A program made the translations under genes and the position numbers. From the NCBI GenBank assembly GCA_947570625.1, contig CANOUP010000020.1, positions 1-34,335 on the forward strand: DNA of 34,335 bases, given 5' to 3'. Positions within the stretch are counted from its first letter, which is position 1. Each line of letters opens with the position of its first letter. The stretch is from an uncultured Clostridia bacterium (GTDB lineage: Bacteria > Bacillota > Clostridia > Christensenellales > Borkfalkiaceae). Shown one piece after another: positions 4,123 to 23,687 of the stretch. The notes beneath the pieces are model-generated. The model had not been told where the DNA came from. It did not search any database and saw only the letters and a list, made by a program, of their open reading frames with translations.

Positions 4123-6487
4123 CGTTTTCATTCTCCTGCGTCTGTTGATTACGTTCGTTATCGTTTATATTCGTTAAAAGCAAAGGTAATCGTTTGAATA
4201 CTTTTTTGCGTTCTTTTTTCTTAAAAAACGTTTTCATTAGCGGTTTATCGAATATTACAAGCATTGACGGGATTACTAAAAGCACGCCGAGAATCGATAT
4301 GATAACGCCGCGTCCCAAGCAGTTTCCAAGCGTCGCGATCAAAGGATTTTTAACAACTCCGCCGATAAGGAACGCCGCGGCAATCATTATCGAGCCGGAA
4401 GTTATAATCGTGGGGAACGCCGCGTTTACGGCTTCCGTCATTGCTTCTTTGCTTTCCATAGTTTTGCGGAATTCCACATATCGCCCCGAAGTTACGATTG
4501 CATAGTCTATCGTCGCGCCCATTTGTATCGCGCTTACGATAAGGTACACGAAGAAAAAGACGTTTGTTCCCATTAGCGGGAAGAATGCGAAATTGATAAA
4601 TATTGCGCCTTGTATCGTGAGTACGAGCGGAATGGGTATTCCCCAAGATTTTACCGTAAACAGCAAAATAATAAACACGAATAAAATTGTAAGAACGCTT
4701 ACTTTTACGTTATCCGTCATAAACGATTGATTTAGATCGTACGAACTCATAGAATCGCCCGCAAATATCGCTTCGGGGCAATAAGACTTTACTTCAATAA
4801 GCAACGCGTCAATAAGCGCGAACGTTTCTTCGCTTTCCACCGCTCCGTCAATATTGAAAAGCAATCTCGAATAATTGATACCCAAAAGTTGATCTTCGGC
4901 ATCGCGAACGGTGTCGCGTAAATCCTCGTAACTTTCCAAAGCGTCCGCATTGTTATATAGGTTGGCTATAATAAAATCGTCATGCCCGAAGGCGCAGTCG
5001 CACATCTGTAAAAGAGACGCGGTGTAAATATTTTTATTCGCTTCATATAGCGCAACTTCTTCGATACCGCTTTTACTGTCGGGTTTACTGAAAAAAGCAT
5101 ACGCGGCATAAATTTTATCGGCAACGCTTTCATCCACCGCAAGCAGTTTTGCAAAACTGCGATAGTTTATCTGTTCGGTTAAATATACCGATTGCGAATT
5201 AAGGGTAAGTTCTACGTTTGCTATGCCGAGGGCGGTGTCGATTTCATCGTGCGCTTCCACCATATTGAGAATTTTTAATTGTTCGTCGTAGTTTCCTTGC
5301 GGAACGAGTATGACAAATTGATTTGACGAGCCGAAAACTTTTTCCGTTTCCCATGCGGCAATTTGACTTTCCGACGGGCGGTTCGTATCAATACTGTTCA
5401 TTGAATAACAATAATCGGTTTGGAACGAAAAATACGTGCCGACGGAAACGACGGCGAGAAATAAAGCAAGAATTACGTATCGGCACTTTATAACCGTCCT
5501 TGCAACGGGGCGGACTGACGGAACGAAATTGCGGTGTTTTGTTTTTTCTATCGGCTTGCTAAACAAAAGAATAATTGCAGGCATAAAAAAGAATACCGTA
5601 ATCATACTGCACAGAATACTCTTCGCAAGCACCAAACCTAAATCCGCACCGAGCCTTAACGCCATTGTGGTCAATGCAAGAAGCCCCGCGATTGTTGTGA
5701 GTGAAGATCCGCAAATTTCGGGTATGGCTTTCGACAACGCTTCGATAACGGCTTCACGGCTGTCCCCCAGCCTTTCCTTCTCTTCAGAAAATCTGTGACA
5801 TAAAATAATCGCGTAGTCGATGGCGAGCGCAAGCTGTAAAATTACGCATACCGAATTTGAAATAAACGAAATTGTCCCGAAAAAGAAATTCGTTCCCATG
5901 TTCAAAAGTGCGGCGACGATAAATACAATCAAAAAGACGCCGACTTCCGCAAAGCTTTTGGAAGTAAACACCAATACGGCAATGATTACAACGATTGCAA
6001 GTAATAAAACGAAATTTATGTCGCGCGCCAAATCGTCCGCCATCGTATCCGTTAACGAAACCGAAACAAGCGCGTCGCGACCGGAAAGCAATTCCAAAGT
6101 TTTGTTGAACGCTTCCACGCATTGTTCGTCTTCGTCGTCGCCGTCAAAGGTAATCTTGAACAGCGCGCACGAATTTTTGTAATAATCGGGCGTGGAATTG
6201 AACTCGAAAGATTTTACGCCTTCGTAGTTCTCTATTTCGTCGTGCAGTTTTTCCGCTTCCGAATAAGAGATATTGCGTACCATTATCGTAGTCGTACCGT
6301 ATGTAACGAATTCCTCTTCCATTATATCGAGCGCTTTTTTCGTATCGGTCGAACTCGGCAAATAGGAAGTTATACTGTATTCTATTTTGACTTGGCTCAT
6401 TCCCCATGCGCTGAATACCATTAACGCAATAAACACAATTACGATTATTTTTCTTTGATTGACTATAAATGTTGCTAATTTTTTCAT
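4112..6487 (-). CDS. MMPL/RND-superfamily exporter
   Basis: A membrane transporter of 791 residues with the two-fold RND layout: a first helix near residues 13-33, a large extracytoplasmic domain, a five-to-six helix bundle, then the same arrangement again. Each half has the Asp-Tyr signature of proton-driven MMPL proteins in a membrane helix (ALAIDYAIIL and GATIDYAIV). The C-terminal tail is Lys-rich, then Asn/Gln/Glu-rich, and cytoplasmic. MMPL proteins export lipids, lipid-linked molecules or hydrophobic drugs. The substrate is not deducible here. It is divergent from a TetR regulator and overlaps the GLUG gene, so the exporter and surface protein are probably co-regulated. No strong Shine-Dalgarno is visible before the ATG. 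Confidence 0.9.
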   Translation of the reverse strand: MKKLATFIVNQRKIIVIVFIALMVFSAWGMSQVKIEYSITSYLPSSTDTKKALDIMEEEFVTYGTTTIMVRNISYSEAEKLHDEIENYEGVKSFEFNSTPDYYKNSCALFKITFDGDDEDEQCVEAFNKTLELLSGRDALVSVSLTDTMADDLARDINFVLLLAIVVIIAVLVFTSKSFAEVGVFLIVFIVAALLNMGTNFFFGTISFISNSVCVILQLALAIDYAIILCHRFSEEKERLGDSREAVIEALSKAIPEICGSSLTTIAGLLALTTMALRLGADLGLVLAKSILCSMITVFFFMPAIILLFSKPIEKTKHRNFVPSVRPVARTVIKCRYVILALFLAVVSVGTYFSFQTDYCYSMNSIDTNRPSESQIAAWETEKVFGSSNQFVILVPQGNYDEQLKILNMVEAHDEIDTALGIANVELTLNSQSVYLTEQINYRSFAKLLAVDESVADKIYAAYAFFSKPDSKSGIEEVALYEANKNIYTASLLQMCDCAFGHDDFIIANLYNNADALESYEDLRDTVRDAEDQLLGINYSRLLFNIDGAVESEETFALIDALLIEVKSYCPEAIFAGDSMSSYDLNQSFMTDNVKVSVLTILFVFIILLFTVKSWGIPIPLVLTIQGAIFINFAFFPLMGTNVFFFVYLIVSAIQMGATIDYAIVTSGRYVEFRKTMESKEAMTEAVNAAFPTIITSGSIMIAAAFLIGGVVKNPLIATLGNCLGRGVIISILGVLLVIPSMLVIFDKPLMKTFFKKKERKKVFKRLPLLLTNINDNERNQQTQENENDEK

Positions 6488-6511
6488 TTAATAATACACT
6501 CGTATGCTATC

Positions 6512-6540
6512 TTGACTTTCATATTATTTTATGATAGACT
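6512..6540 (+). promoter_or_regulatory. Promoter of the TetR regulator gene
   Basis: TTGACT at 6512-6517 and TAGACT at 6535-6540 are separated by 17 bp. The predicted start near 6547 places the palindrome at 6551-6580 directly downstream, a position suited to autorepression. Confidence 0.5.
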
Positions 6541-6565
6541 ATAAAAAAGGTAAAGCAAACGGCAA
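6538..6565 (-). promoter_or_regulatory. Promoter of the MMPL exporter operon
   Basis: On the minus strand TTGCCG (6565-6560) and TATAGT (6543-6538) are separated by 16 bp. The -35 box lies inside the 30-bp palindrome, so a protein bound there would block this promoter. Confidence 0.5.
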
Positions 6566-6580
6566 ATACCGTTTGCTTTA
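6551..6580. promoter_or_regulatory. 30-bp palindrome, candidate TetR operator
   Basis: Two perfectly complementary 12-base arms (6551-6562 and 6569-6580, TAAAGCAAACGG and its complement) flank a 6-base centre. It lies between the divergent exporter and TetR genes, covers the -35 region of the exporter promoter and sits just after the TetR -10 box. The arrangement fits binding by a dimeric TetR-family repressor controlling both genes. On the minus strand a T-rich run follows, so an attenuator is a less likely alternative. Confidence 0.6.
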
Positions 6581-6621
6581 ATCGGTAAGATAACATACTG
6601 AATCGGGGAAAGCGTATTATT

Positions 6622-7218
6622 ATGGAAAAAAAAGAAGATACACGCATAACGAGAAGTAAACGCGATTTACGCAATGCTTTTATGGAGCTTATAAAAAGCC
6701 AGCCGTTTGAAAAAATTTCCGTAACGGATATATGTAAAAAGGCTATGATTAACAAAATGACTTTTTATAAGCACTATCAGGACAAATATGCGTTACTTGA
6801 CGACTGTATCAAAGCGATTGCCGAAAACGTGTATTTTAACTGTGTAAAAAACGGAGACATAGATAAACGGTTAAACGATAACCCCACAGACTTTTTTGTG
6901 GATTTGCTTAACGTAATAATGAACGAATGTTATTCAAAAAAAGAAATATTGCTGTCGCTTGTTTACGGAAACAATACTTCTTTACGTTTTGTTGTTGAAA
7001 ACTGCTGCAAGAACATTGTGGAACAGCTTATAAATAAGTTGGCACAAAGCTATGATTTCAAATATCCGACAACCGTTATAACAAATTTCATAACGGGCGG
7101 ATTTGCAAGCGTGATTACAGAATGCTTAATCGTTCCGTCGTTTTCAATCGAAAAATTCAACGAGTATTCAAGGTTGTTTTTCAACGACCTTTTAAGCAGC
7201 AAATTGATAACGAAATAA
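6622..7218 (+). CDS. TetR/AcrR-family transcriptional regulator
   Basis: A 198-residue DNA-binding repressor. Residues about 10-60 form the TetR helix-turn-helix, with the typical 'ISVTDICKKAMINKMTFYKHY' type core. The remainder is a helical ligand-binding domain resembling the C-terminal region of the DhaS-like TetR subgroup. The gene is divergent from the MMPL exporter and is the obvious candidate to bind the palindrome between them. Codon use and base composition are clearly more AT-rich than in the two-component genes that follow, compatible with separate acquisition of this block. The inducer is unknown. Confidence 0.88.
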   Translation: MEKKEDTRITRSKRDLRNAFMELIKSQPFEKISVTDICKKAMINKMTFYKHYQDKYALLDDCIKAIAENVYFNCVKNGDIDKRLNDNPTDFFVDLLNVIMNECYSKKEILLSLVYGNNTSLRFVVENCCKNIVEQLINKLAQSYDFKYPTTVITNFITGGFASVITECLIVPSFSIEKFNEYSRLFFNDLLSSKLITK

Positions 7219-12343: not shown

Positions 12344-12414
12344 CTGAATTTACACAGTTTCTTCTTATTGCAAACTAATGTTTAAATTGCCGAAACCTAT
12401 TCCATATATATAAT

Positions 12415-12439
12415 GCCGCCGCGCAAAAAACGCGGCGGC
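12415..12439 (-). terminator. Hairpin after hypA, probable operon end
   Basis: A GC-rich 9-bp stem (GCCGCCGCG paired with CGCGGCGGC) with a 7-base loop begins 11 bp past the hypA stop. The stronger T run lies on the plus-strand side (12444-12451), so its efficiency for the minus-strand operon is uncertain. Confidence 0.6.
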
Positions 12440-12449
12440 AAAATTTTTT

Positions 12450-12794
12450 TTATTCGATGACCATATCTTTAATCGTCATTTCGTTGCCCGTGACGAGATA
12501 GGTTTCCGCGCTTTTGCAGTACGGACAGATTTTCGCGTGCTCGGTCGTTTTGTACGTATTTTTACACTTGGTACAGTAAGAAACGGCTTTTAGAATAATC
12601 ATCTCCAACTCGGTATCGCGCATAAGGCGGGTCTTTTTTTTCGCCCACTCGAAGCAGTCGGTAAAGTACGACGGCACTATCGACGACACCTCGCCTATTT
12701 CCAGCGTAAGTTTCAGCACGCGCTCCGCCCCGTTTTCCTCGGCGGTCTTTTCAGCCTGGGCGATTACGTGTTTAACAATTCCCAGCTCGTGCAT
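12450..12794 (-). CDS. hypA: HypA, hydrogenase/nickel-enzyme maturation chaperone
   Basis: A 114-residue cytoplasmic metallochaperone that, with HypB, loads nickel into [NiFe] hydrogenase or other nickel enzymes. It begins with the family's MHE nickel-binding N-terminus (MHELGIV, H2) and has the structural zinc site C74/C77 and C90/C93. Length and order match the family. Its ATG shares one base with the stop of the preceding oxidoreductase gene, so it is the last gene of a coupled four-gene operon. No hydrogenase or urease structural gene is present in the window, so its client enzyme is unknown. Confidence 0.93.
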   Translation of the reverse strand: MHELGIVKHVIAQAEKTAEENGAERVLKLTLEIGEVSSIVPSYFTDCFEWAKKKTRLMRDTELEMIILKAVSYCTKCKNTYKTTEHAKICPYCKSAETYLVTGNEMTIKDMVIE

Positions 12795-15622
12795 TATTTA
12801 CCCTTTTTAATCTGTCTGCGCGCCTTTTTGTAGGCTTTGCGTTTCTTCTTCAAAAGCCTTGCTTCCTTAGAGCCCGAGTGCATTATTATCTTGAACGCGC
12901 GCTTCAAGGAATAGCTTAAAAGTCCGCCGACCTTCTTTTCCGCGACGCGCATGGTCGAGCACTTGGGATGGTCGCGCACAAGGTGAATAGCGTCGAAATT
13001 GCATCTTGTGGTACAGATACCGCAACCTATGCACTTGTTGGGGTCCACATACGAAGCTCCGCACGAAAGACAGCGGTTTGTTTCGGCTTTTACCTGGCTT
13101 TCGGTCAGCGTGCCGTGCGCGCCTTCCTCCTGCTGTCTGGGCGTATTGTCGTAGGAAGGATATTCTACGTTATCCTTATCGAGTATCGCGTAGTACCTTC
13201 TGTCCCTGCCTATCGTCATATGCGCGTTGGGGCGCACGCAACGGTGCAGGCTTTCCGCAACCTCGTGACCCTGCGCGATTGCGTCGATAACGAAGCGGGG
13301 TCCCGTGAACACGTCGCCTCCCACAAAGATATCGGGGTCGGCAGTCCTGTAAGTGAAGGTATCGGCAACGGGGTATTTTCCGCCCCTCAGCGTGACGGAA
13401 GTGCCTTCGAGCAGGTTGCCCCAGTCGACCGACTGACCTATCGCAAACACGATTTTATCGGCTTCGACTTCGATTGTTTCATCCTCGCTGTATACGGGCA
13501 TGAACGCCTTCGTTTCGGGGTCTGTCGTCCTTATGCACTTTTTAAACACTATCCCGCAGACCTTGCCTTTTTCGTCTACCTTAATCTGTTTGGGTCCCCA
13601 CGAGGGGTTAATGCAAACTTTATCTTCCTCGGCTTCACGTATCTCTTCGGGGCTTGCGGGCATATCCTCCCTCTTTTCAAGGCAGTACATACTGACGGAG
13701 GAAGCTCCGCGGAGCACGGCGTTGCGCGCGCAGTCTATCGCCACGTTACCGCCTCCCACAACGACCACCTTGCCCGCGAACGGCTCCTGCTTGTCAAAGC
13801 TTTCGCGCAGGTACTTAACCGCTATTTCACAGCCGTCGGCGGTATCGTTTTCTATTCCGGGAAGTTTACCGCCCTGGCAGCCTATCGCTATGAAGAACGC
13901 CTTATAGCCCTGCTCGCGGAGCTGGGGGATTGTTATATCCTTGCCCACTTCCACGTTGCAGTGAATTTCCGCGCCGAGCTGTCTTATTACGTCTATTTCG
14001 GCTTCTATAACGTCCTTTTCAAGCTTATACGAAGGTATTCCGTACGTCAGCATACCGCCCGCACAGGGGTTCTTTTCGAATATAACCGGTTTGTAACCCA
14101 TCTGCGCGAGGTAGTAACCCGCGCTTAGTCCCGCGGGACCTCCGCCGATAATGGCGATTTTTTCGTTAAACGAGCCGTGCACGGACTGAACGACCTTTTC
14201 GGGGACGTAACGCTCGCCCGACTTGATTTCGAGGTCGGCCACGAACTTCTTTACCGCGTCGATTGAAACGGGCGAATCTATGTCTCCGCGCGTGCAGGCA
14301 AGCTCGCAACGCTTGTTGCACACTCTTCCGCACACCGCGGGGAAGGGATTTTCCGTCTTTATCATCGCAAGCGCTTCCCTGTACCTGCCGTCATGCGCAA
14401 GCTTCAAGTACGCCTGTACGGGCACGTGCGCGGGACAGGACGCCTTACAGGGCGCGCTTCCGCTGTCGTAAGTATTGGAAAGGCGGGCGGTGTCGCGGTA
14501 CTCTTCGTCCCACGCGTAAGCGCCCCACTTATTGTTGTCGGGCAGAGGCGCGTGCGGATATTTGACTTCTTTTCCGCCCTTGGCGCAGAGCTTCTGACCG
14601 AGTTTGACCGCGCCGGCAGGGCAGGCCTCGACGCACTTTCCGCAGGCGACGCACTTCTCTTTTTCCACCTTTGCGGTGTATGCGCTCCTCGAAAGGTTGG
14701 GCGTGTTGAAAAGAAGGGACGTTCTCAGCGCGTTACATATTTTTACGTTGCAGTTGCAGATGTCGAAAATCTTGTTCTCGCCGTCAATGTTGGTTATCTG
14801 GTGAACGTAACCGTTCTTTTCGGCAAGTTCCAAAATTTCGAGCGCGCGCTCCTTTGTTATGTAGTGTGCGCGCCCCGTTTCCACGGTGTAGTCCGCCATA
14901 TCGCCCAGCTGTATGCACCAGTCGTCCACGTCGTCGGTACAGCCGTCGCCCAGCACGGCGCGCGAGGCACGGCACGAGCAGATACCCGCGGAAATATGCC
15001 CCTCGTATTTTTTAAGCCAGTAGGAAATGTGCTCTAAATCAACGGACTTGCTCTCCGCGTTAATCGCCTTTTCGACGGGTATGACGTGCATGCCTATGCC
15101 GTCACCCCCCGGCGGAATCATCTGCGTTATTCCCGCAAGAGGAATAAACGTCATTCTCTCGAAGAAGGAAGCGACTGCGGGATTGCGCTCGATACGGTCG
15201 ACCGAGGAATTGAAAAGCTCCGCCGAGCCCGGCACAAAGAAGGGCACGCGGTATCTCTTTACCCGCGGTCTGTCTTTAAGCTCGCCGTAATGGTCGTAGT
15301 TGTCGCCGTAGTCGTATTCGAGTATGCCTATGTACGACATTTCGTCGAGAAGCTTCTGGAAACGCGCGGGTTCGACGCCCTTGTTCATTTTGAGAAGTTT
15401 TTCGAAAGTGTAATACTTTCTCAGCTTCATTTTGTTGGCTATATCGCACATTTCCGGCGTTAAAACTTCTTTAAGCCCCCAGTACTCGGGGTCGTCGGAA
15501 GTGACGCCGAACAGCTTGTGGGGCACCACGTCCGTTATCTTTTTACCCAGCTTTATATAGCGCTTGTCGGGATTTTTTTCGCCCTGGTGTTTACTGATGA
15601 TTTTGTCGTTCTGCTCAGGCAT
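12794..15622 (-). CDS. Multidomain Fe-S/FAD NAD(P)-linked oxidoreductase (GltD-like with extra ferredoxin domains)
   Basis: A 942-residue cytoplasmic redox protein. Residues 1-210 are a domain found ahead of Fe-S modules in other 4Fe-4S proteins. A cysteine-rich segment follows (C215, C217, C228, C236, C289, C291, C296), then a ferredoxin motif C324-C327-C330-C334P. A dihydropyrimidine-dehydrogenase/GltD-type Fe-S helical domain lies at about 390-460 (C392, C396, C431, C435, C439, C443). The FAD Rossmann motif GGGPAGLS is at 493-500, the NAD(P) motif VVGGGNVAID at 621-630 and the GGD FAD motif at 768-770. A C-terminal ferredoxin-like segment has C851, C854, C864, C867, C870 and C874, then a Lys-rich tail. 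It probably moves electrons between NAD(P)H, FAD and Fe-S centres. The partner is unknown. AGGAG lies eight bases before the ATG, which shares one base with the hypB stop. Confidence 0.88.
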   Translation of the reverse strand: MPEQNDKIISKHQGEKNPDKRYIKLGKKITDVVPHKLFGVTSDDPEYWGLKEVLTPEMCDIANKMKLRKYYTFEKLLKMNKGVEPARFQKLLDEMSYIGILEYDYGDNYDHYGELKDRPRVKRYRVPFFVPGSAELFNSSVDRIERNPAVASFFERMTFIPLAGITQMIPPGGDGIGMHVIPVEKAINAESKSVDLEHISYWLKKYEGHISAGICSCRASRAVLGDGCTDDVDDWCIQLGDMADYTVETGRAHYITKERALEILELAEKNGYVHQITNIDGENKIFDICNCNVKICNALRTSLLFNTPNLSRSAYTAKVEKEKCVACGKCVEACPAGAVKLGQKLCAKGGKEVKYPHAPLPDNNKWGAYAWDEEYRDTARLSNTYDSGSAPCKASCPAHVPVQAYLKLAHDGRYREALAMIKTENPFPAVCGRVCNKRCELACTRGDIDSPVSIDAVKKFVADLEIKSGERYVPEKVVQSVHGSFNEKIAIIGGGPAGLSAGYYLAQMGYKPVIFEKNPCAGGMLTYGIPSYKLEKDVIEAEIDVIRQLGAEIHCNVEVGKDITIPQLREQGYKAFFIAIGCQGGKLPGIENDTADGCEIAVKYLRESFDKQEPFAGKVVVVGGGNVAIDCARNAVLRGASSVSMYCLEKREDMPASPEEIREAEEDKVCINPSWGPKQIKVDEKGKVCGIVFKKCIRTTDPETKAFMPVYSEDETIEVEADKIVFAIGQSVDWGNLLEGTSVTLRGGKYPVADTFTYRTADPDIFVGGDVFTGPRFVIDAIAQGHEVAESLHRCVRPNAHMTIGRDRRYYAILDKDNVEYPSYDNTPRQQEEGAHGTLTESQVKAETNRCLSCGASYVDPNKCIGCGICTTRCNFDAIHLVRDHPKCSTMRVAEKKVGGLLSYSLKRAFKIIMHSGSKEARLLKKKRKAYKKARRQIKKGK

Positions 15623-16293
15623 TACGTTTTCTCCTTGCCGTTTATTTTGTTCAGAATGTATTCGCTAAGTTCCCGCATACCCTCGCCCGTCTTTGCGGAA
15701 ACAGGCAATATGTCCGCGCGCGGGTTGCGCAGGCGAATATTGCGTATGCACTTTTGCAAATCGAAGGGGAAGTAATCCCCCGCGTCCGTTTTAGTGATTA
15801 TTACAAGCCCGCACTTTTGGAAAACGAGCGGGTATTTAAGCGGTTTATCGTCCCCTTCGGGCACGGACAAAAGCACCGCGTCGAGGTGCGCGCCCGTATC
15901 GTATTCGGCGGGGCACACGAGGTTGCCTACGTTTTCCAGAAAGATTAAGCGGGGAAGTCCGTCCAGCCCTTCGAGCCCCTGTCTTGTCATCTGCGCGTCG
16001 AGATGGCACATACCGCCCGTATGGAGCTGGATTGACTTACAGCCCGTCTTTTCGGCAACGCGCACCGCGTCGACGTCGCTGTCTATGTCGGCTTCCATAA
16101 CGCCCGCGCTTATATGCTCTTTAAGGCGGTTAATCAGCCCAACCAAAAGCGTAGTCTTTCCCGCGCCGGGCGACGACATTACGTTTATTAGAAAGGTTCC
16201 CTTCTCTTTTAGCTCTTCCCTCAGCCTTTGCGCTTCGCCGTCGTTGTCGGCAAGCACGCTTTGGTTTAAAAGTATTGTTCTGACTTTACCCAT
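15622..16293 (-). CDS. hypB: HypB-1, nickel-insertion GTPase
   Basis: A 223-residue SIMIBI-class GTPase of the HypB/UreG family. The P-loop SPGAGKTT is at 41-48, followed by the EADIDSDVDA switch region, the C96-H97 and C127 metal-site residues (GGMCHLDA, NLVCPAEYD), and an NKxD-like TKTD at about 167-170. It lacks both the N-terminal CxxCGC nickel site of E. coli HypB and a His-rich stretch. It starts two bases after the preceding stop, with no clear ribosome-binding site, so its translation is probably coupled. UreG is less likely because of the C-H/C metal site and the HypA gene in the same operon. Confidence 0.92.
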   Translation of the reverse strand: MGKVRTILLNQSVLADNDGEAQRLREELKEKGTFLINVMSSPGAGKTTLLVGLINRLKEHISAGVMEADIDSDVDAVRVAEKTGCKSIQLHTGGMCHLDAQMTRQGLEGLDGLPRLIFLENVGNLVCPAEYDTGAHLDAVLLSVPEGDDKPLKYPLVFQKCGLVIITKTDAGDYFPFDLQKCIRNIRLRNPRADILPVSAKTGEGMRELSEYILNKINGKEKT

Positions 16294-16295
16294 TA

Positions 16296-17678
16296 TTATT
16301 TGAAGAATCTTCTTACAAGGTCGCGGCTGTATTCAACCGTTTCTTCCATATCGCCGAAAGCCATAACCTCGCCCGCGTAATAGGTGTTGTCCTTGCCCTG
16401 CATTGCTTCTACCTTGTCGTACCAGCCGTCGGCGTAGTCCTTGGAGGATACGTGCGGGAAATAGTACCAGTCGTCTATGCGCTCGGTCTTGTCGACGGGC
16501 AGTCCGCACTTAGTCATATCGGCAAGCGTGGTGTCGCGCGCGGTGTCGAAAGGAACGTCCTCCATACCCTCGTGGTTTCTCAAAGTGAATGTGACGAGAG
16601 GCTGGTCGGTGATTTCCTCCTGCGGCCAGCGGTGGTAGAACACCATAAGGTGCCCGCGCGTTTCGTTGGTCATATTTTCAAAGAAGTAATAGGATATATC
16701 GGGGCACTTACCCTCCGCCGTCCTTACCGCCATAGTGAAATATTCTTTATGTACAATCTTGGAGAACAGCTCCTTCTCTTCCTCTCTCGGGTCGCCGTAT
16801 TTGAGGAACAGCTCCAACGGCGTGCAGATGACGAGTTTGTCAAACTCTTCCGTTTTTCCGTTGACGGTGACGTAGACTTTGCCGTCCCTGCGCTCTATGC
16901 CCGTTACTTCGCAGTTGAGGTTTGCGGGGTGTTTGAGGTGATTGTTTACGCCCTCCCATATGGATTGCGTGCCATCTCTCCACGTCCACAGCTTGCCCGT
17001 GGAAAGGAATTGCTGTACGGTGAACGCGTCGAGGTATTTAAGCACGTATGCCGCGGGGATTTCGTCGAAATAGCCGTATCCGAACGACGTGAAAGGTCCC
17101 TTCCAGACGAGGGTCGCGTCCTCGCACTTGTTCTTTTTGAGGAACTCCGAGAAAGGCATGGACAAATCTTTTAAGTTGGGGTTAACGCCCTCTATGTGTT
17201 TAAGCTTCATTTTCGGCGAGGGGCAGGGGCCTTCGTACCTGCCCTGCGCGACTCCGCGGTGTCCGTTTACGTCGTAGCCGTAGTATTTTTTATTTAAAAG
17301 CTTATTCAGCTTTTTCATTTTCATAAACTTTTTCAAAAGCGCAAGCTTGGAAGATTTCTGCGGGGTGCCGTCCGTCATCATAAAACGCCTGCCCATAGGG
17401 GGACCGTCGAGGTGGGTCGTACCGCCGAACTCTTCGCACTCCTGCACGGCAAAATAGGTGTCGCACCCCATTACCGCGCCCATTTCGATAGTCCTGTCCT
17501 CCCACTCGCCGTTCGGCTTTTTACACTTCATCAAAGGCGAAAAGGCTTTACCGCCCACGCGCCCCGACTTTTCGTAAATAACGTAATTATCGTAACCCTT
17601 TTTTTCAAGGTACATGGCAAGGCTGGTGCCCGCGGGGCCTCCGCCTATAATGCATATTCTTTGATTTTTGTCGTCCAT
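16296..17678 (-). CDS. FAD-dependent oxidoreductase resembling polyunsaturated fatty acid isomerase (PAI)
   Basis: A 460-residue flavoprotein of the amine-oxidase fold. The FAD dinucleotide-binding motif IGGGPAGTSLAMYLEKKGY starts at residue 10, followed by the VGGKAFSP turn. The C-terminal flavin motif is TYYAGEVMAFGDMEE. From memory the central and C-terminal segments (FGYGYFDEIPAAYVLKYLD, LWTWRDGTQ, MVFYHRW, WYYFPHVSS) resemble Propionibacterium acnes PAI, which converts linoleic acid to 10,12-conjugated linoleic acid without net redox change. A fatty-acid isomerase or related flavin enzyme is therefore plausible, but the substrate is unproven. It is the first gene of the hypB-oxidoreductase-hypA operon, with its own promoter and AGGAG six to seven bases before the ATG. 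Confidence 0.8.
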   Translation of the reverse strand: MDDKNQRICIIGGGPAGTSLAMYLEKKGYDNYVIYEKSGRVGGKAFSPLMKCKKPNGEWEDRTIEMGAVMGCDTYFAVQECEEFGGTTHLDGPPMGRRFMMTDGTPQKSSKLALLKKFMKMKKLNKLLNKKYYGYDVNGHRGVAQGRYEGPCPSPKMKLKHIEGVNPNLKDLSMPFSEFLKKNKCEDATLVWKGPFTSFGYGYFDEIPAAYVLKYLDAFTVQQFLSTGKLWTWRDGTQSIWEGVNNHLKHPANLNCEVTGIERRDGKVYVTVNGKTEEFDKLVICTPLELFLKYGDPREEEKELFSKIVHKEYFTMAVRTAEGKCPDISYYFFENMTNETRGHLMVFYHRWPQEEITDQPLVTFTLRNHEGMEDVPFDTARDTTLADMTKCGLPVDKTERIDDWYYFPHVSSKDYADGWYDKVEAMQGKDNTYYAGEVMAFGDMEETVEYSRDLVRRFFK

Positions 17679-17708
17679 AAAAATACTCCTAATATATTAC
17701 TTTATAAT

Positions 17709-17737
17709 ATAATACTACTTAAAAAAGGATATGTAAA
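17709..17737 (-). promoter_or_regulatory. Promoter of the PAI-like/hypB/oxidoreductase/hypA operon
   Basis: On the minus strand TTTACA (17737-17732) and TATTAT (17714-17709) are separated by 17 bp, in the 73-bp gap after the ECF-methyltransferase gene. The predicted leader is about 24 nt and contains AGGAG. Read-through from the upstream unit is also possible because no terminator is seen in the gap. Confidence 0.6.
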
Positions 17738-17751
17738 TACCTGAAAGAAAA

Positions 17752-18903
17752 TTATTTTCGTTTTTTTGCAATTTTTTTCATTAATCCCAGCACATAACGT
17801 TCGTCGTTATCCGTTTTGCATACGATATCGAAATAATCTTTTAGTTTTGCGCCCTCTTTTTCGGGCGGAAGAAGGCAAACCGAAATCCCGCCGTGACCCG
17901 TATGGTAGCCGTTTATTTTTTCACGGCTTTCGTCGAAGGCAATCCAAAGCGTTCCGCCGTCCTTCAACAGCGCGTGCGCCTTGCGCGCAAACGCGTCCTT
18001 GTCCGTAAAATGTGGATACGCGTCGAAAACGGCAATACAGTCATAAGGCTCCGAGGGGGTCAATTCATAAAAATCGGCGACCACGTAATTTATCCCGGGG
18101 TTGGCTTTGCGCGCCCTTTCTATCATCTTTTCGGACAAATCCGCGCCGTCGACAATACAGCCCTTTGACAGCAGAAAGCCGCCGAGAACGCCCGTTCCGC
18201 AACCGGCGTCAAGCACGCGCTTGCCCTCGCCCAGCCCCGCGCCCCCGAAAAGGATTTCCAGCTCTGCTTGGCTTACGCCCCCTTCGCGCCTCCACCCCTC
18301 GGCGAGCCCGTCGAAAAACTCCTTCTGTCTAACGATGTTTTTGCGGTGGTGCATGGGGTCGAGGTACCTGTCGCTCTCGCCGATGAAACGGTATTTTTCG
18401 GCAACGGTAACGACCGTCGGGATAACGGCAAGCTGTATTACGATTGCCGGCCAGCAGGTGACGAAATAGCCCGTGAAAAACAGCGTCCAGGTGTACGAAT
18501 CGCGCGTTCCGCCTAAAAACAGCAGGTACGCGACGCACCCGCCCGCTATTCTGCCCGCAAGCATACTTAAAACAAGCGATATGTACACGTCGGGAATAAA
18601 TCTGCCCGTCTTGATTATGCGGAAAAACACGCCCGAGGCAGTGCTGTACACCAACAGCTCCGCCATCATATTGGGCAGAAAAGCAACGGTAGGCATACCC
18701 GTGAACAGAAAGGACAACAGCGGACAGACAAGCCCGACAATCGCGCCGTACATAGGTCCGCAAAGAAAGCCCGTGACGAAAACGGGCAGATGCATGGGCG
18801 CGAAAATACTACCGCCGTTGGGTATTGCGTGGAACGCCATGGGCAGAAGCACGCCGACGGCAAGCATCATCGCGGAAAAACAAAGCTTTTTCGTATTGCT
18901 CAT
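17752..18903 (-). CDS. Fusion: ECF-transporter S component (N-terminal) plus SAM-dependent methyltransferase (C-terminal)
   Basis: A 383-residue fusion. Residues about 5-170 are a membrane domain of about five to six helices with features of ECF S components (PMHLPVFVTGFLCGP, then a PLLSFLFTGMP segment), which capture vitamins or metals for a shared energising module. Residues about 190-383 are a class I methyltransferase with SAM motif I LDAGCGTGV at 230-238 and an acidic ADLSEKM segment after strand 2. The junction (about 175-200) reads through in one frame with a typical methyltransferase start (RQKEFFDGLAE). The start codon overlaps the hypB-2 stop by four bases (ATGA). No ECF A or T gene is nearby, as expected for shared-module transporters. 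The ligand and methyl acceptor are unknown. Confidence 0.85.
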   Translation of the reverse strand: MSNTKKLCFSAMMLAVGVLLPMAFHAIPNGGSIFAPMHLPVFVTGFLCGPMYGAIVGLVCPLLSFLFTGMPTVAFLPNMMAELLVYSTASGVFFRIIKTGRFIPDVYISLVLSMLAGRIAGGCVAYLLFLGGTRDSYTWTLFFTGYFVTCWPAIVIQLAVIPTVVTVAEKYRFIGESDRYLDPMHHRKNIVRQKEFFDGLAEGWRREGGVSQAELEILFGGAGLGEGKRVLDAGCGTGVLGGFLLSKGCIVDGADLSEKMIERARKANPGINYVVADFYELTPSEPYDCIAVFDAYPHFTDKDAFARKAHALLKDGGTLWIAFDESREKINGYHTGHGGISVCLLPPEKEGAKLKDYFDIVCKTDNDERYVLGLMKKIAKKRK

Positions 18904-19571
18904 AATTTTATCTTTTCTATCTCGCTTTTAATGTACGCTTCCAGCGCGTCCAGCCCCTCGCCCGTTTTGGCGCAAGTTACGAACACGGGCGCGGAAGGAT
19001 TGCGCTTTTTAATGTTTTTAACGGCTCTTTCGGCGGAAAAGTCGAAAATACCGCTTACGTCCGTCTTTGTTATTGCGACGGCGGAAGCAACCTCGAACAT
19101 CAGGGGGTATTTAAGCGGTTTGTCGTCGCCCTCGGGCACGGACAGAAGCACGAGGTTTTTCGCCGAGCCCGTATCGAACTCCGCGGGGCAGACGAGGTTG
19201 CCGATATTTTCGAGGATAATTACGTCCAGCCCGTCAGCGCCCAGCGCTTCGAGGCTTTCCGCCGACATCTGATAAGTGATATGGCAGGCGCCCGCCGTGT
19301 TAATCTGCACCGTTTTAACGCCCGTTTCCCGCGCGATTGTACGCGCGTCGACCGCGCCGTCGAGGTCGGCTTCGATAACGCCTATCCTGTAAGTTGATTT
19401 AAGCCTGTTCACAAGCTCGGTTATAAGCGTGGTTTTTCCGCTTCCGGGCGAGGACATAACGTTGAGATAAAATATCTTTCTGCGTATCAGGCTTTCCCTC
19501 AGCTCCTGCGCGCCCGCATTGTTGCGCGAGAGTATATCTTCCTTTATTTCTACTGTTTTAATATCTTCCAT
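18900..19571 (-). CDS. hypB: HypB-2, second HypB-type nickel GTPase
   Basis: A 223-residue paralogue of HypB-1 with the same landmarks: P-loop SPGSGKTT at 41-48, EADLDGAVDA, metal-site residues C96-H97 and C128, the LLSVPEGDDKPLKYP segment and TKTD. It also lacks an N-terminal Cys- or His-rich nickel store. The ATG at 19571 is chosen. A TTG-initiated extension to 19607 would begin with the -35 box of a perfect promoter and is rejected. The transcript would start at or within a base or two of this ATG, so the mRNA is probably leaderless. It is translationally coupled to the ECF-methyltransferase fusion. Confidence 0.9.
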   Translation of the reverse strand: MEDIKTVEIKEDILSRNNAGAQELRESLIRRKIFYLNVMSSPGSGKTTLITELVNRLKSTYRIGVIEADLDGAVDARTIARETGVKTVQINTAGACHITYQMSAESLEALGADGLDVIILENIGNLVCPAEFDTGSAKNLVLLSVPEGDDKPLKYPLMFEVASAVAITKTDVSGIFDFSAERAVKNIKKRNPSAPVFVTCAKTGEGLDALEAYIKSEIEKIKL

Positions 19572-19578
19572 ACAAAAA

Positions 19579-19607
19579 ATTATATAACCCTTGCTCCCCT
19601 TTGTCAA
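19579..19607 (-). promoter_or_regulatory. Consensus promoter of hypB-2, predicted leaderless
   Basis: On the minus strand a perfect TTGACA (19607-19602), a 17-bp spacer and a perfect TATAAT (19584-19579) occur with only seven bases between the -10 box and the ATG. The expected start is near 19572, leaving essentially no leader. Confidence 0.8.
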
Positions 19608-19613
19608 TACCGT

Positions 19614-19642
19614 TTGACAAACGCGCGGGTTTAAATTAAAAT
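19614..19642 (+). promoter_or_regulatory. Promoter of the PLP-homeostasis gene, back to back with the hypB-2 promoter
   Basis: TTGACA at 19614-19619 and TAAAAT at 19637-19642 are separated by 17 bp. The -10 box ends nine bases before the ATG, so the leader is only two or three bases. The two divergent -35 boxes are six bases apart and form an inverted repeat (TTGTCAA/TTGACAA). Confidence 0.7.
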
Positions 19643-20326: not shown

Positions 20327-20358
20327 AAGCCGACGGGCGCAAATTCGCCCGTCGGCTT
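20327..20358 (+). terminator. Terminator between convergent genes
   Basis: A perfect 13-bp GC-rich stem (20327-20339 with 20346-20358) with a 6-base loop is followed by TTAATTTA. It touches the stop codon of the convergent lipoprotein gene and may terminate both transcripts. Confidence 0.82.
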
Positions 20359-23300
20359 TAATTTATCTCTATAGGTTTGTAGTAAGTGCTGTTAAACTCC
20401 GCTTCTCCGCTGTTATATTCGTTCCATCCAGTGCTCCACCCCTCGTCGGAAGGACCGCGCACATACACCTTTGTATCGTTATATCCTAAAATACAAGAGC
20501 CTACGTATACAACCGATTTAGGTATTACCAGCTCTTTAAGCTTCGGACACCACAAAAATGCGTTGTGACCTATCTCCTCCACGTTTACAAGCGTAACCGA
20601 ACTCAGCTCCGGACAGAGAGCAAATGCATTATTCCCGATTTTTTTAACCGTTGGCGACAGCACGACTTTTTTAAGCTTGGGACAATGAAAAAAACCGTTC
20701 AAAGCTATTTGCGTAACCGTATATTCCTTTCCGTCGATAACCGCGGTCGAGGGGATATACGCTTCGACTGCCGTGCCCTTGTTGGCAATTCTTACCTTGC
20801 ACTCCGTTTCGTTTATTATCGAAAACGTGAATCTTGCAATGCTGTCGGTCCAGCCCCAGATTACGTTCTGGTTTGCGTTGCCTTTGTTCCAGTCTTCGTT
20901 CCACCCTTCGGGCTTTTCTTCCGCTTCGGCGTAAACCTGCGTATTACTGCCGTTAAAAATACCGCCCATAATTTTTGCCGCCGACTTGGGAATTATAATT
21001 TCCTTTAAAGCATAACATTCGGCAAACGCATGTGCTTCTATGTATTCGGCTTTGGGTATTTCCGCAAGACTTAAAGCCGAACAGCCTTCAAAAGCCATTT
21101 GGTATATAGCCCTTGCCTTAGGCAGTTCAACGCTTTGCAGTTTTGAACACTCTGCAAATGCGCTGTCGTAAATTATCTGAGCGTTGGGTAAAGATATTTC
21201 GGTCAACGACTCGCATCCGACGAACGCTCCGTGTCCGACAACCAGGACGGTATCGGGCAATATTACCCTTTCAAGCTTGCCGCCTAACCAAAAACAATCG
21301 TCCGCAATATGGGTAACCGTGTATTGCTCGCCGTCTATCACAACCTTTTCGGGTATCAGCGCAACCGTCGCTTTTGTCGGGTTTGTGCACTCGACGGAAC
21401 AGAGTTTATTTTCTTCATCGACGGGCAAATACGTAAATTCCGCAAGAACGTCGCCGTCCTTCCAGCCCCAGATTACGTTCTGGTTTTTGTTAAGTTCATT
21501 CCAGTCTTCATGCCAGCCCGCAGGCTTGCTTTGCGCGCGGACGCAAACCTGCGTGTTGTTTCTTGCGAATATAAACCTACCGACCGTTTCGGCGCTTTCG
21601 GGAATAATTATTATACTCAGTTTGGGACAAAGACAAAACGCCGTGTTATGTATTACCGTAACGGTATCGGGCAGAACAACTTTCTCCAACTCGGGGCAAT
21701 TGCTAAAGCCGATATTGTATATTTCGGTAACGGTATATTCCTTTCCGTCAATAACAGCAGTCTGAGGGATTTCCGCAATCATTGCATATTCTTTATTTAA
21801 ACAACGATACACCATACATTGCGTATCGTTAAGTTTTTCATACTTTAATTCCGCGGGAATGAGATAATCGTAAATTACGTTTTGGTTTTCGTTGTCCCTG
21901 TTCCAGTTGACATCCCAGTTTTGGGTATCGGCGCCTTTGACGACTTTTACGGAAGTATTATTATACTGAAAAACACTCTCTCCCATTTTTGCGGCAGTCT
22001 TTGGTATCACCGCTTCGCTTAATTCGGGACAAAAACCGAAAGCCCCGTCGCCTATCTCCTCCGCCGCGGGCATAAATACGCTTTCAAGCTTATCGCAATC
22101 CAGAAATGCCTGTGAGCCGATTGTTTTAACGGAAGTTAAATCAGCCTTAACCAGACTTTCGCAATCTCTGAAAGCGCCGACGCCGATTGTTTCCACTCCG
22201 CCAAGATTAATGTCCGTCAGATAACGGCAGAAATCAAATGCTATAGCGCCTATTTGTTTGACGGTTGAAGGCAGCTTCACCTCTCGCAGCGGTATTCTGT
22301 GTATAACTCCTTCGACAACGTTATAAAACGCCCTCTCCGCAATGCGCGTTACGGTATATTCCTTTCCGTCTATTACAGCTTTTTCGGGAATTTCGGCGTA
22401 TGTTACGTCGTCCAAGTTCGCACAGGATACTTCGCACTCGCTATCGCTTATCGGATTGTAATTTAAAACGGCTTTCCCTTCGAACCAGCCCCAGATTACG
22501 TTTTGGTTTTCGTTGCCCCTGTTCCAGCCTGCATGCCAGCCTTCGGGCTTTGAATCCGCAACGACGCAAACCTGCGTGTTGTTTTTTGCGAATATATACC
22601 TACCGACCGTTCCGACGCTTTCGGGAATAATTATTATACTCAGTTTGGGACAAAGACAAAACGCCGAGTCATGTATTACCTTAACAGTAACGGGCAGAAC
22701 AACTTTTTCCAACTCGGAACACGCACCAAAACCGGGCCTGCATATTTCGGTAACGGCGTATTCCTTTCCGTCAATAACAGCAGTCTGAGGAATTTCCGCA
22801 ATCATTGCATATTTTCTGTTTAAACAACGATACACCATACATTGCGTATCGTTAAGTTTTTCATACTCTAATTCCGCGGGAATGAGATAATCGTAAATTA
22901 CGTTTTGGTTTTCGTTGTCGCGGTTCCAGTTGACATCCCAGTTTTGGGTATCGGCGCCTTTGACGACTTTTACGGACGTATTATTGTAATGAAAAACGTC
23001 CGCGCCCATTTTTGAAGCAGTCTTTGGTATCACCGCTTCGCTTAATTCGGGGCAAAGACCGAAAGCGCCGTCGCCTATCTCCTCCGCCGCGGGCATAAAT
23101 ACGCTTTCAAGCTTATCGCAGCACATAAGCGCCTGTGAGCCGATTGTTTTAACGGAAGTTAAATCCGCCTTAACCAGACTTTCGCAATCTCTGAGAGCGC
23201 CGACGCCGATTGTTTCCACTCCGCCAAGATTAATGTCCGTCAGATAACGGCAGTAATCAAATGCCATAACGTCTATTTGTTTGACGGTTGAAGGCAACTT

Positions 23301-23687
23301 CACCTCTCGCAGCGGTATTCTGTGTATATCTCCTCCGATAACGTTATAAAACGCCCTCTCCGCAATGCGCGTTACGGTATATTCCTTTCCGTTTATTACA
23401 GCTTTTTCGGGGATTTCGGCGTATGTTACGTCGTCCAAGTTCGTACAGGATACTTCGCACTCGCTATAGCTTATCGGGTTAAACGCAAGCTCTGCGTTTA
23501 TTACGGCGCCGGGGGAAGAAATTACACTGTCTTCGCCGACAAATCCCGACGAATTTTCGGGCGGGACGGGGACGGGCGCCTTAACGGCGGAGTCTTGTTG
23601 CAGGCTTAAAGACGCGCACCCGCAGAACGTGAACACCGCCGACGCGCAAATTAAAATTATTAAAATTACAAGTCTTTTGCCTTTCAT
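20358..23687 (-). CDS. BspA-like leucine-rich-repeat lipoprotein
   Basis: A surface lipoprotein of 1,109 residues. A signal peptide ends in a lipobox-like TFCGC with lipidation expected at C24. The rest is tandem LRR_5 (BspA/TpLRR) modules with recurring 'AFxxCxxLxxVxLP' units and repeated ITVT-type beta segments (GKEYTVTRIA). Modules are separated by a linker ending in NQNVIWGW or NQNVIYDY, seen about five times. The first two 341-residue units are nearly identical; later ones have diverged. BspA-type proteins often bind host or extracellular components. The ligand is unknown. The predicted -10 box lies six bases before the ATG, and no Shine-Dalgarno is seen. Confidence 0.88.
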   Translation of the reverse strand: MKGKRLVILIILICASAVFTFCGCASLSLQQDSAVKAPVPVPPENSSGFVGEDSVISSPGAVINAELAFNPISYSECEVSCTNLDDVTYAEIPEKAVINGKEYTVTRIAERAFYNVIGGDIHRIPLREVKLPSTVKQIDVMAFDYCRYLTDINLGGVETIGVGALRDCESLVKADLTSVKTIGSQALMCCDKLESVFMPAAEEIGDGAFGLCPELSEAVIPKTASKMGADVFHYNNTSVKVVKGADTQNWDVNWNRDNENQNVIYDYLIPAELEYEKLNDTQCMVYRCLNRKYAMIAEIPQTAVIDGKEYAVTEICRPGFGACSELEKVVLPVTVKVIHDSAFCLCPKLSIIIIPESVGTVGRYIFAKNNTQVCVVADSKPEGWHAGWNRGNENQNVIWGWFEGKAVLNYNPISDSECEVSCANLDDVTYAEIPEKAVIDGKEYTVTRIAERAFYNVVEGVIHRIPLREVKLPSTVKQIGAIAFDFCRYLTDINLGGVETIGVGAFRDCESLVKADLTSVKTIGSQAFLDCDKLESVFMPAAEEIGDGAFGFCPELSEAVIPKTAAKMGESVFQYNNTSVKVVKGADTQNWDVNWNRDNENQNVIYDYLIPAELKYEKLNDTQCMVYRCLNKEYAMIAEIPQTAVIDGKEYTVTEIYNIGFSNCPELEKVVLPDTVTVIHNTAFCLCPKLSIIIIPESAETVGRFIFARNNTQVCVRAQSKPAGWHEDWNELNKNQNVIWGWKDGDVLAEFTYLPVDEENKLCSVECTNPTKATVALIPEKVVIDGEQYTVTHIADDCFWLGGKLERVILPDTVLVVGHGAFVGCESLTEISLPNAQIIYDSAFAECSKLQSVELPKARAIYQMAFEGCSALSLAEIPKAEYIEAHAFAECYALKEIIIPKSAAKIMGGIFNGSNTQVYAEAEEKPEGWNEDWNKGNANQNVIWGWTDSIARFTFSIINETECKVRIANKGTAVEAYIPSTAVIDGKEYTVTQIALNGFFHCPKLKKVVLSPTVKKIGNNAFALCPELSSVTLVNVEEIGHNAFLWCPKLKELVIPKSVVYVGSCILGYNDTKVYVRGPSDEGWSTGWNEYNSGEAEFNSTYYKPIEIN
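21455..23500 (-). repeat. Tandem 1,023-bp duplication inside the LRR lipoprotein gene
   Basis: Matching blocks recur with an offset of 1,023 bp (341 codons), for example at 23471 and 22448 and again at about 22482 and 21459. The units run roughly 23500-22478 and 22477-21455 and are highly similar at the DNA level with scattered substitutions. In-frame unit gain or loss by recombination is likely. Boundaries are approximate. Confidence 0.85.

Follow-up and report, generated by a model that had tools for sequence, protein, structure and literature searches.

A candidate operon for polyunsaturated-fatty-acid biohydrogenation, in which HypA and HypB accompany an IsrA-like reductase and a PAI-like flavoprotein, in an uncultured Clostridia bacterium

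The stretch of DNA analysed here, referred to as the window, covers positions 1–34,335 of contig CANOUP010000020.1 in the assembly GCA_947570625.1 of an uncultured Clostridia bacterium (Christensenellales; Borkfalkiaceae), and the subject of this work is a putative redox operon within it. According to the list of open reading frames (ORFs), six co-directional minus-strand genes occupy the 12,450–19,571 region and encode, in the direction of transcription, the GTPase HypB-2 (18,900–19,571), an ECF transporter S component fused to an S-adenosylmethionine-dependent methyltransferase (17,752–18,903), a flavoprotein of 460 amino acids (aa) similar to polyenoic-fatty-acid isomerase (PAI; 16,296–17,678), a second GTPase, HypB-1 (15,622–16,293), an IsrA-like reductase of 942 aa (12,794–15,622), and the metallochaperone HypA (12,450–12,794). 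The genes of HypB-2 and the fusion protein overlap by 4 bases, those of HypB-1 and the reductase, and of the reductase and HypA, by 1 base each, and the PAI gene and hypB-1 are 2 bases apart. A 73-base gap (17,679–17,751) parts the hypB-2–ECF-S/methyltransferase unit from the PAI–hypB-1–reductase–hypA unit. A preliminary description of this DNA had listed six same-strand genes of these families in two units, with overlaps of one to four bases and a two-base spacing; the ORF positions and domain searches agreed with the former, and the junctions proved exact.

Upstream of hypB-2, a promoter-like sequence (TTGACA-17-TATAAT, 19,579–19,607, minus strand) carries 12 of the 12 consensus bases. Its −10 box ends 7 bases before the ATG at 19,571, thus the transcript would be leaderless or nearly so. 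The TTG at 19,607, which had been taken for the HypB-2 start codon, sits inside this promoter-like site, and homologues point instead to the ATG at 19,571. A further promoter-like site (17,709–17,737, minus strand; 10 of 12 consensus bases) precedes the PAI gene, and a terminator-like hairpin with an 11-pair stem and a T-run (12,414–12,440, minus strand) follows hypA; all three signals are pattern matches only. Another strong promoter-like site at 19,614–19,642 (11 of 12 bases) stands back to back with that of hypB-2 and would serve a divergent gene with an alanine-racemase N-domain.

Domain scanning of the reductase detected Fer4_20 (PF14691), Pyr_redox_2 (PF07992), and Fer4, with two further ferredoxin-type sites; the protein has a [4Fe-4S] region and, near the C-terminus, cysteines of the ferredoxin type. 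Residues ~380–800 form an NfnB/GltD-like core (Fer4_20 plus the FAD/NAD(P)H part), whose best solved relatives are 9bov, 8oh5, and 9n5u, and which resembles the electron-input modules of NfnB, GltD, and dihydropyrimidine dehydrogenase. The best matched NfnB/GltD-type stretches exclude the N-terminal Cys6 domain (residues 1–315, encoded at 14,678–15,622, minus strand), which has no Pfam domain of its own, as the Pfam search gave only ferredoxin-type matches, from residue 309 onward. Three of its six cysteines (C215-x-C217 and C236) are kept in 43 of 43 sequences and the other three (C289-x-C291 and C296) in 42, the remaining sequence having an alignment gap. The length is likewise conserved, since 42 of 43 relatives have 892–976 aa (the exception is truncated where its contig stops), unlike the GltD type of 500–600 aa. 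The AlphaFold2 model of the reductase reached a mean predicted local distance difference test score of 85.9 and a predicted template modelling score of 0.87.

A protein of this kind has already been described. In the passages of Kronen et al. (2023; PMC10134865) available to us, IsrA of Acetobacterium wieringae is an isoprene-induced protein of 901 aa, tied by proteomics to the reduction of isoprene, a conjugated diene, and nickel was proposed at its Cys6 site. The isr operon encodes two HypA and one HypB in a genome without [NiFe] hydrogenase or HypCDEF, and among the neighbours of 988 IsrA relatives the same passages give frequencies of 0.73 for HypA, 0.56 for HypB, and 0.40 for DUF5692, and report an oleate hydratase near the relatives in two Acetobacterium species. 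The window shares with this operon, as far as those passages describe it, a large Fe-S/FAD/NAD(P)H oxidoreductase with an N-terminal Cys6 domain (two CxC motifs), the adjacent hypA and hypB, the lack of [NiFe] hydrogenase in the genome, and DUF5692 as a frequent neighbour in the family. It differs in having two HypB and one HypA, in lacking a separate 4Fe-4S ferredoxin gene, and in containing PAI and the ECF-S/methyltransferase fusion. The core of the window thus fits the IsrA family (clade 9 putative isoprene reductases) by every feature that could be tested, and the hypB–oxidoreductase–hypA core is already known as the IsrA-type system published in 2023.

The distribution of this core was followed using the C-terminal 378 residues of the oxidoreductase as query, counting long-form IsrA at E ≤1e-80. 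Long IsrA was found in 37 of 297 genomes of the order, while most of the 254 matches were weak GltD-type hits and were not counted; a partial IsrA beside hypA in the genome G260, cut by a contig end, is also outside the 37 (genomes and loci are denoted here by our own G and L numbers). Altogether 125 loci were compared: 40 stretches from 35 of these 37 genomes (besides the window's own genome, and with G439 left out), five loci of the family chosen because they carried hypA, and 80 loci of named organisms, the best 80 of 505 relatives. The final neighbour counts were made by tblastn, as calling the longest ORFs had produced antisense artefacts (cluster c6 and others). The oxidoreductase was found in 123 of the 125 loci, with hypA nearby in 107 and hypB in 88. 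When the count was confined to the 77 loci whose flanks both reached 3.5 kb or more, hypA was present in 69, hypB in 57, and both in 57, leaving 8 without hypA and 20 without hypB. The named relatives span Bacillota, Actinomycetota, Bacteroidota, and Spirochaetota, and many of their record titles name sections of the rumen or gut. The clustering of hypA and hypB with IsrA exceeds chance. Two or more hypB matches occurred in 19 of the 77 well-covered loci, thus the HypB pair is a recurrent feature; in L059, L060, and L061, which belong to other families, two adjacent hypB genes lie inside the IsrA cluster.

The metallochaperone genes themselves appear intact. HypA, with its MHE start and two CxxC motifs, matched PF01155 (8.2e-30), yet its 78.2 bits are below the 88.1 cut-off of the NCBI hypA equivalog TIGR00100, while both HypBs exceed the cut-off of TIGR00073 (5.9e-66 for HypB-1, and 3e-67 for HypB-2 in its longer, TTG-initiated form). 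The MHE motif of HypA is kept in 42 of 43 relatives and the CxxC pair in all 43. The CH part of the HypB metal site (CH...C in HypB-2) was found in 41 of 41 HypB-1 and 14 of 14 HypB-2 sequences, and the P-loop pattern in 38 of 41 and 14 of 14, respectively.

Classically, HypA and HypB serve nickel enzymes, so these genes could supply another such enzyme of the genome (hydrogenase, carbon monoxide dehydrogenase (CODH), lactate racemase, or urease) and stand beside IsrA by chance. A scan of 21 window ORFs detected no domain of hydrogenase, urease, or CODH, in accordance with the earlier statement that the window holds no [NiFe] hydrogenase, urease, or CODH gene. The [NiFe] large subunit was absent from all 201 genomes of the family and from 41 cluster- or HypA-bearing genomes (36 of the 37 long-IsrA genomes, with G439 left out, plus five family genomes with HypA), the window's own genome included. 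HypD was likewise found in none of the 41, its own genome included, in a search that did not cover HypC, HypE, HypF, or urease. Matches to the Prismane/CODH family (1 of 41 genomes) and to Lar_N (7 of 41), which speak for another nickel enzyme in some of these bacteria, did not occur in the window's own genome. As positive controls, 14 named genomes yielded NiFe in 5, HypD in 4, Prismane in 5, and Lar_N in 2, with Escherichia coli giving matches to NiFe, HypD, and Prismane. The window's own assembly (1.72 Mb) is 92% complete, thus these absences are strong rather than absolute; its single HypA match is that of the window. The part of the Butyrivibrio fibrisolvens genome report available to us (PMC6249431) lists HypD, HypE, and HypF, so a hydrogenase system may exist as well in some of the genera that carry IsrA. 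Nevertheless, with both hypA and hypB close to IsrA in 57 of 77 well-covered loci, and with no match in the window's own genome in searches that covered the NiFe large subunit, HypD, Prismane/CODH, and Lar_N, service to another nickel enzyme seems very improbable.

Still more improbable is that the genes are scattered remnants of a lost hydrogenase system. HypA matches were obtained in 81 of the 201 family genomes, mostly at 19–28 bits, which were not counted; the seven that reached at least 69 bits comprise five adjoining IsrA, one near a contig end (G061), and a fragment in G128, a genome of the same genus. This fragment (L076:6405–6980) lacks the first residues of HypA and shares the reading frame of an unrelated ORF upstream of it; the 14 kb fetched around it contained no IsrA. 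It looks like the scar of operon loss in a sister species and shows that decay does happen, which would favour the remnant explanation; the genes of the window are, by contrast, intact and overlapping, their order is conserved in several phyla, and no family genome has a NiFe large subunit. A hydrogenase relic, another nickel enzyme, and chance clustering were accordingly rejected on the conserved clusters, the 57 of 77 loci, and the missing NiFe large subunit. The suggestion that this HypA/HypB set serves a target other than hydrogenase therefore holds as probable: the neighbourhood and hydrogenase searches that had been proposed as a check revealed a cluster shared by many genomes, with neither NiFe large subunit nor HypD in the 41 searched for both, which is not what scattered maturation genes would give.

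The second notable member of the operon is the flavoprotein, which belongs to the Amino_oxidase family. Its sole strong solved relative, 2b9w (E 2e-112, in two stretches covering residues 4–141 and 170–459 of 460), is listed in the PDB as a 'putative aminooxidase', and we take it to be the polyenoic fatty acid (linoleate) isomerase PAI of Cutibacterium (Propionibacterium) acnes. Arg88, Phe168, and Phe193 of 2b9w are presumably active-site residues; in a hand alignment they correspond to R97, F199, and F224 of the window protein, which are identical in 18 of 18 relatives. The near full-length similarity and these residues make the flavoprotein a probable polyenoic-fatty-acid (linoleate) isomerase, which, unlike that of C. 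acnes, is encoded in a reductase operon. The C. acnes enzyme is described, in the literature passages found, as forming trans-10,cis-12 conjugated linoleic acid (CLA), hence the route in the window would be trans-10.

PAI was found in 20 of the 297 order genomes, from nine families, and all 20 are among the 37 genomes with long IsrA (hypergeometric P 2.6e-21, phylogeny not considered). Stratified by family, the association gave P ~7e-14 from hand-read counts, with family totals based on 274 listed genomes, 23 unlisted ones missing. The two genes share a locus in 17 of the 20 genomes and lie apart in the fetched stretches of G322, G346, and G408, so neighbourhood alone is not the source of the association. 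Among the 125 loci, PAI was near IsrA in 23. On a FastTree phylogeny of 120 IsrA sequences, the label 'PAI nearby' required 11 changes, at least 9 of which were forced by well-supported branches. In a class-wide sample, only 2 of 391 genomes carried PAI, namely the window's own and G739.

A divergent arrangement of PAI and an AMP-dependent acyl ligase was seen in nine genomes (G259, G275, G295, G298, G322, G346, G401, the genome of L084, and G739, which belongs to another part of the class). An acyl-ACP thioesterase gene is present in nine of these nine and an acyl carrier protein (ACP)-like gene in eight, with weak matches in L062 and L169 and none seen in L168; the Pfam names of ligase, ACP, and thioesterase were checked on one to two representatives each. 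G401 has two such loci: in L069 the contig stops after the ligase, and L172 has ligase, ACP, and thioesterase. Five of the nine genomes (L065, L066, L067, L069, L084) have, after PAI, genes for a CrtI/saturase-type flavoprotein, a 2Fe-2S flavin reductase, and a paralogue of IsrA; in L084 this paralogue forms a tandem with another IsrA and hypA. These PAI neighbours provide, as judged from their predicted families, a context of fatty-acid activation, modification, and release. As a separate observation, the set of PAI, CrtI/saturase-like flavoprotein, 2Fe-2S flavin reductase, and divergent acyl ligase recurs in L065, L066, L067, L069, L084, and L184, completed by ACP and acyl-ACP thioesterase where the contig reaches, and is a candidate for a fatty-acid conjugation or saturation module of its own.

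A probable linoleate isomerase, which would make a conjugated diene, encoded beside a member of a family linked to isoprene/butadiene reduction, is most simply read as part of a biohydrogenation pathway. We therefore propose, with a probability of about 0.62, that the operon encodes a polyunsaturated-fatty-acid biohydrogenation system, in which PAI conjugates the substrate and the resulting diene is reduced by the IsrA-like enzyme, whose metal would be supplied by HypA/HypB. By homology, the PAI-like flavoprotein would shift a double bond in linoleate or some comparable acid, yielding the conjugated diene. Electrons of NAD(P)H would then pass through the FAD core to the [4Fe-4S] clusters of the IsrA-like protein, and the diene would be reduced to a monoene at the N-terminal Cys6 site. 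HypB, as a GTPase, and HypA would load nickel into this site, as proposed for IsrA by Kronen et al.; such loading may be the reason why both persist in the absence of hydrogenase. The proposed chemistry, conjugation followed by reduction to a monoene, is that of ruminal biohydrogenation in B. fibrisolvens, which involves an isomerase and a CLA reductase, although the locus of a Butyrivibrio metagenome-assembled genome (L126) differs from the window, containing IsrA, HypA, HypB, and DUF5692, and PAI was not found in that genome. In the open-access (PMC) literature found, as far as its passages go, no link of IsrA-type proteins to PAI or fatty-acid biohydrogenation is stated; the main text of PMC10134865, in the form available, lacks 'linole', 'rumen', and 'Butyrivibrio', and uses 'fatty acid' in other contexts.

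Several points weigh against this proposal. IsrA membership was judged by the published feature description rather than by direct alignment or a tree with VUZ27132.1, the passages of the literature covered report no activity of purified IsrA, and nickel is deduced from HypA/HypB only. No ligase, ACP, or thioesterase gene lies beside the window PAI, the rest of the genome not having been searched for them. In G739, PAI occurs with ligase, ACP, and thioesterase, and no IsrA lies in the 14 kb fetched, the only part of that genome searched for it, which means that PAI can occur without adjacent IsrA. The label changes on the IsrA tree may be losses rather than gains. Moreover, PAI is absent from 17 of the 37 long-IsrA order genomes and from 20 of 24 genomes of named loci, including Butyrivibrio, Pseudobutyrivibrio, Roseburia, and Collinsella; thus PAI is not a general companion of the IsrA family, and the remaining relatives must act on different substrates or depend on different isomerases.

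The many IsrA loci without PAI would also suit the view that the IsrA-like enzyme reduces some other unfunctionalised or conjugated C=C compound (terpene, carotenoid, or steroid) and that the PAI substrate is of the same kind rather than a fatty acid. The characterised IsrA is linked to isoprene and its authors suggested terpenes as further substrates (PMC10134865, in the passages available). On the other hand, the genes for acyl ligase, ACP, and acyl-ACP thioesterase belong to fatty-acid metabolism, and the only strong solved relative of the flavoprotein is, by our assumption, a fatty-acid isomerase, which makes this view rather unlikely. A different metal deserves slightly more weight, though it also remains the less probable choice: HypA binds zinc as well as nickel, and HypA/HypB of the operon could insert zinc, iron, or another metal, or merely aid assembly of the Fe-S site, with no nickel delivery. 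The retention of the HypA MHE and HypB CH...C motifs in almost all copies and the company of an unusual Cys6 protein in several phyla argue rather for nickel loading of the IsrA-like enzyme.

Across the family, the recurrent partners of IsrA are PAI or DUF5692, not the ECF-S/methyltransferase. DUF5692, predicted to be a membrane protein and showing His and Trp residues conserved across 27 sequences, was near IsrA in 28 of the 125 loci, and no IsrA locus had it together with PAI (28 and 23 loci, respectively; P 0.0013 over 123 loci, ignoring phylogeny). Its IsrA loci are from Bacteroidota, Lachnospiraceae, and Collinsella (L058, L100–L104, L107–L110, L113–L116, L126, L130, and others), and 13 of them also hold a protein of ~114 aa, the tested member of which had no Pfam match. 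A bolder and doubtful extension of the biohydrogenation proposal would regard IsrA-like proteins as conjugated-fatty-acid reductases of gut and rumen bacteria, forming a new nickel enzyme class (a Ni-Fe-S diene reductase with dedicated HypA/HypB), with interchangeable isomerases: the soluble PAI (trans-10) or DUF5692, a candidate for the membrane-bound isomerase of the Butyrivibrio type. Against such interchangeability, DUF5692 was found in 4 of the 297 order genomes and only 2 of these 4 have long IsrA.

The fusion protein (ECF_trnsprt, PF12822, 3.5e-14, at residues 5–165; Methyltransf_25, PF13649, 4e-16, at 230–317) was found in full only in the window and in 3 of 45 order loci (L032, L039, L068), while L038 and L042 have the methyltransferase part alone after hypB-2. 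The idea of ligand uptake and methylation as a common theme was therefore abandoned, and conjugation of fatty acids with their subsequent reduction is the theme that has the best support. The preliminary description had also considered an undescribed pathway; the core of the cluster proved to be the IsrA-type system of 2023, whereas the fatty-acid isomerase partner and the acyl-ACP context are new. Overall, the interpretation given in that description is partly supported.

Outside the operon, an MMPL-family exporter gene with a divergent TetR-type regulator (4,112–7,218) lies ~5 kb past its end. AddAB-like neighbours had been suspected, but the domain scan showed one of them to be an MMPL protein and gave no Pfam match for the other. 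On the other side, 20,358–23,687 encodes a BspA-type leucine-rich-repeat protein of 1109 aa with six LRR_5 stretches.

New in these results are the partnership with a probable fatty-acid isomerase, the presence of IsrA in each PAI-bearing genome of the order sample, and the acyl-ACP surroundings. The literature passages found name no gene for the reducing step in biohydrogenating anaerobes, and the operon offers candidates for both biohydrogenation steps, together with their metal helpers, in one locus. Since trans-10,cis-12 CLA depresses milk fat (PMC11770317, in the part available), these genes also matter to dairy science. If nickel is confirmed, one more enzyme and one more substrate class, the unactivated conjugated dienes, would join the short list of nickel enzymes, and the presence of HypA/HypB in genomes without hydrogenase would be explained. 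The operon is thus a candidate explanation for the saturation of polyunsaturated fat from the diet by anaerobic bacteria of the gut.

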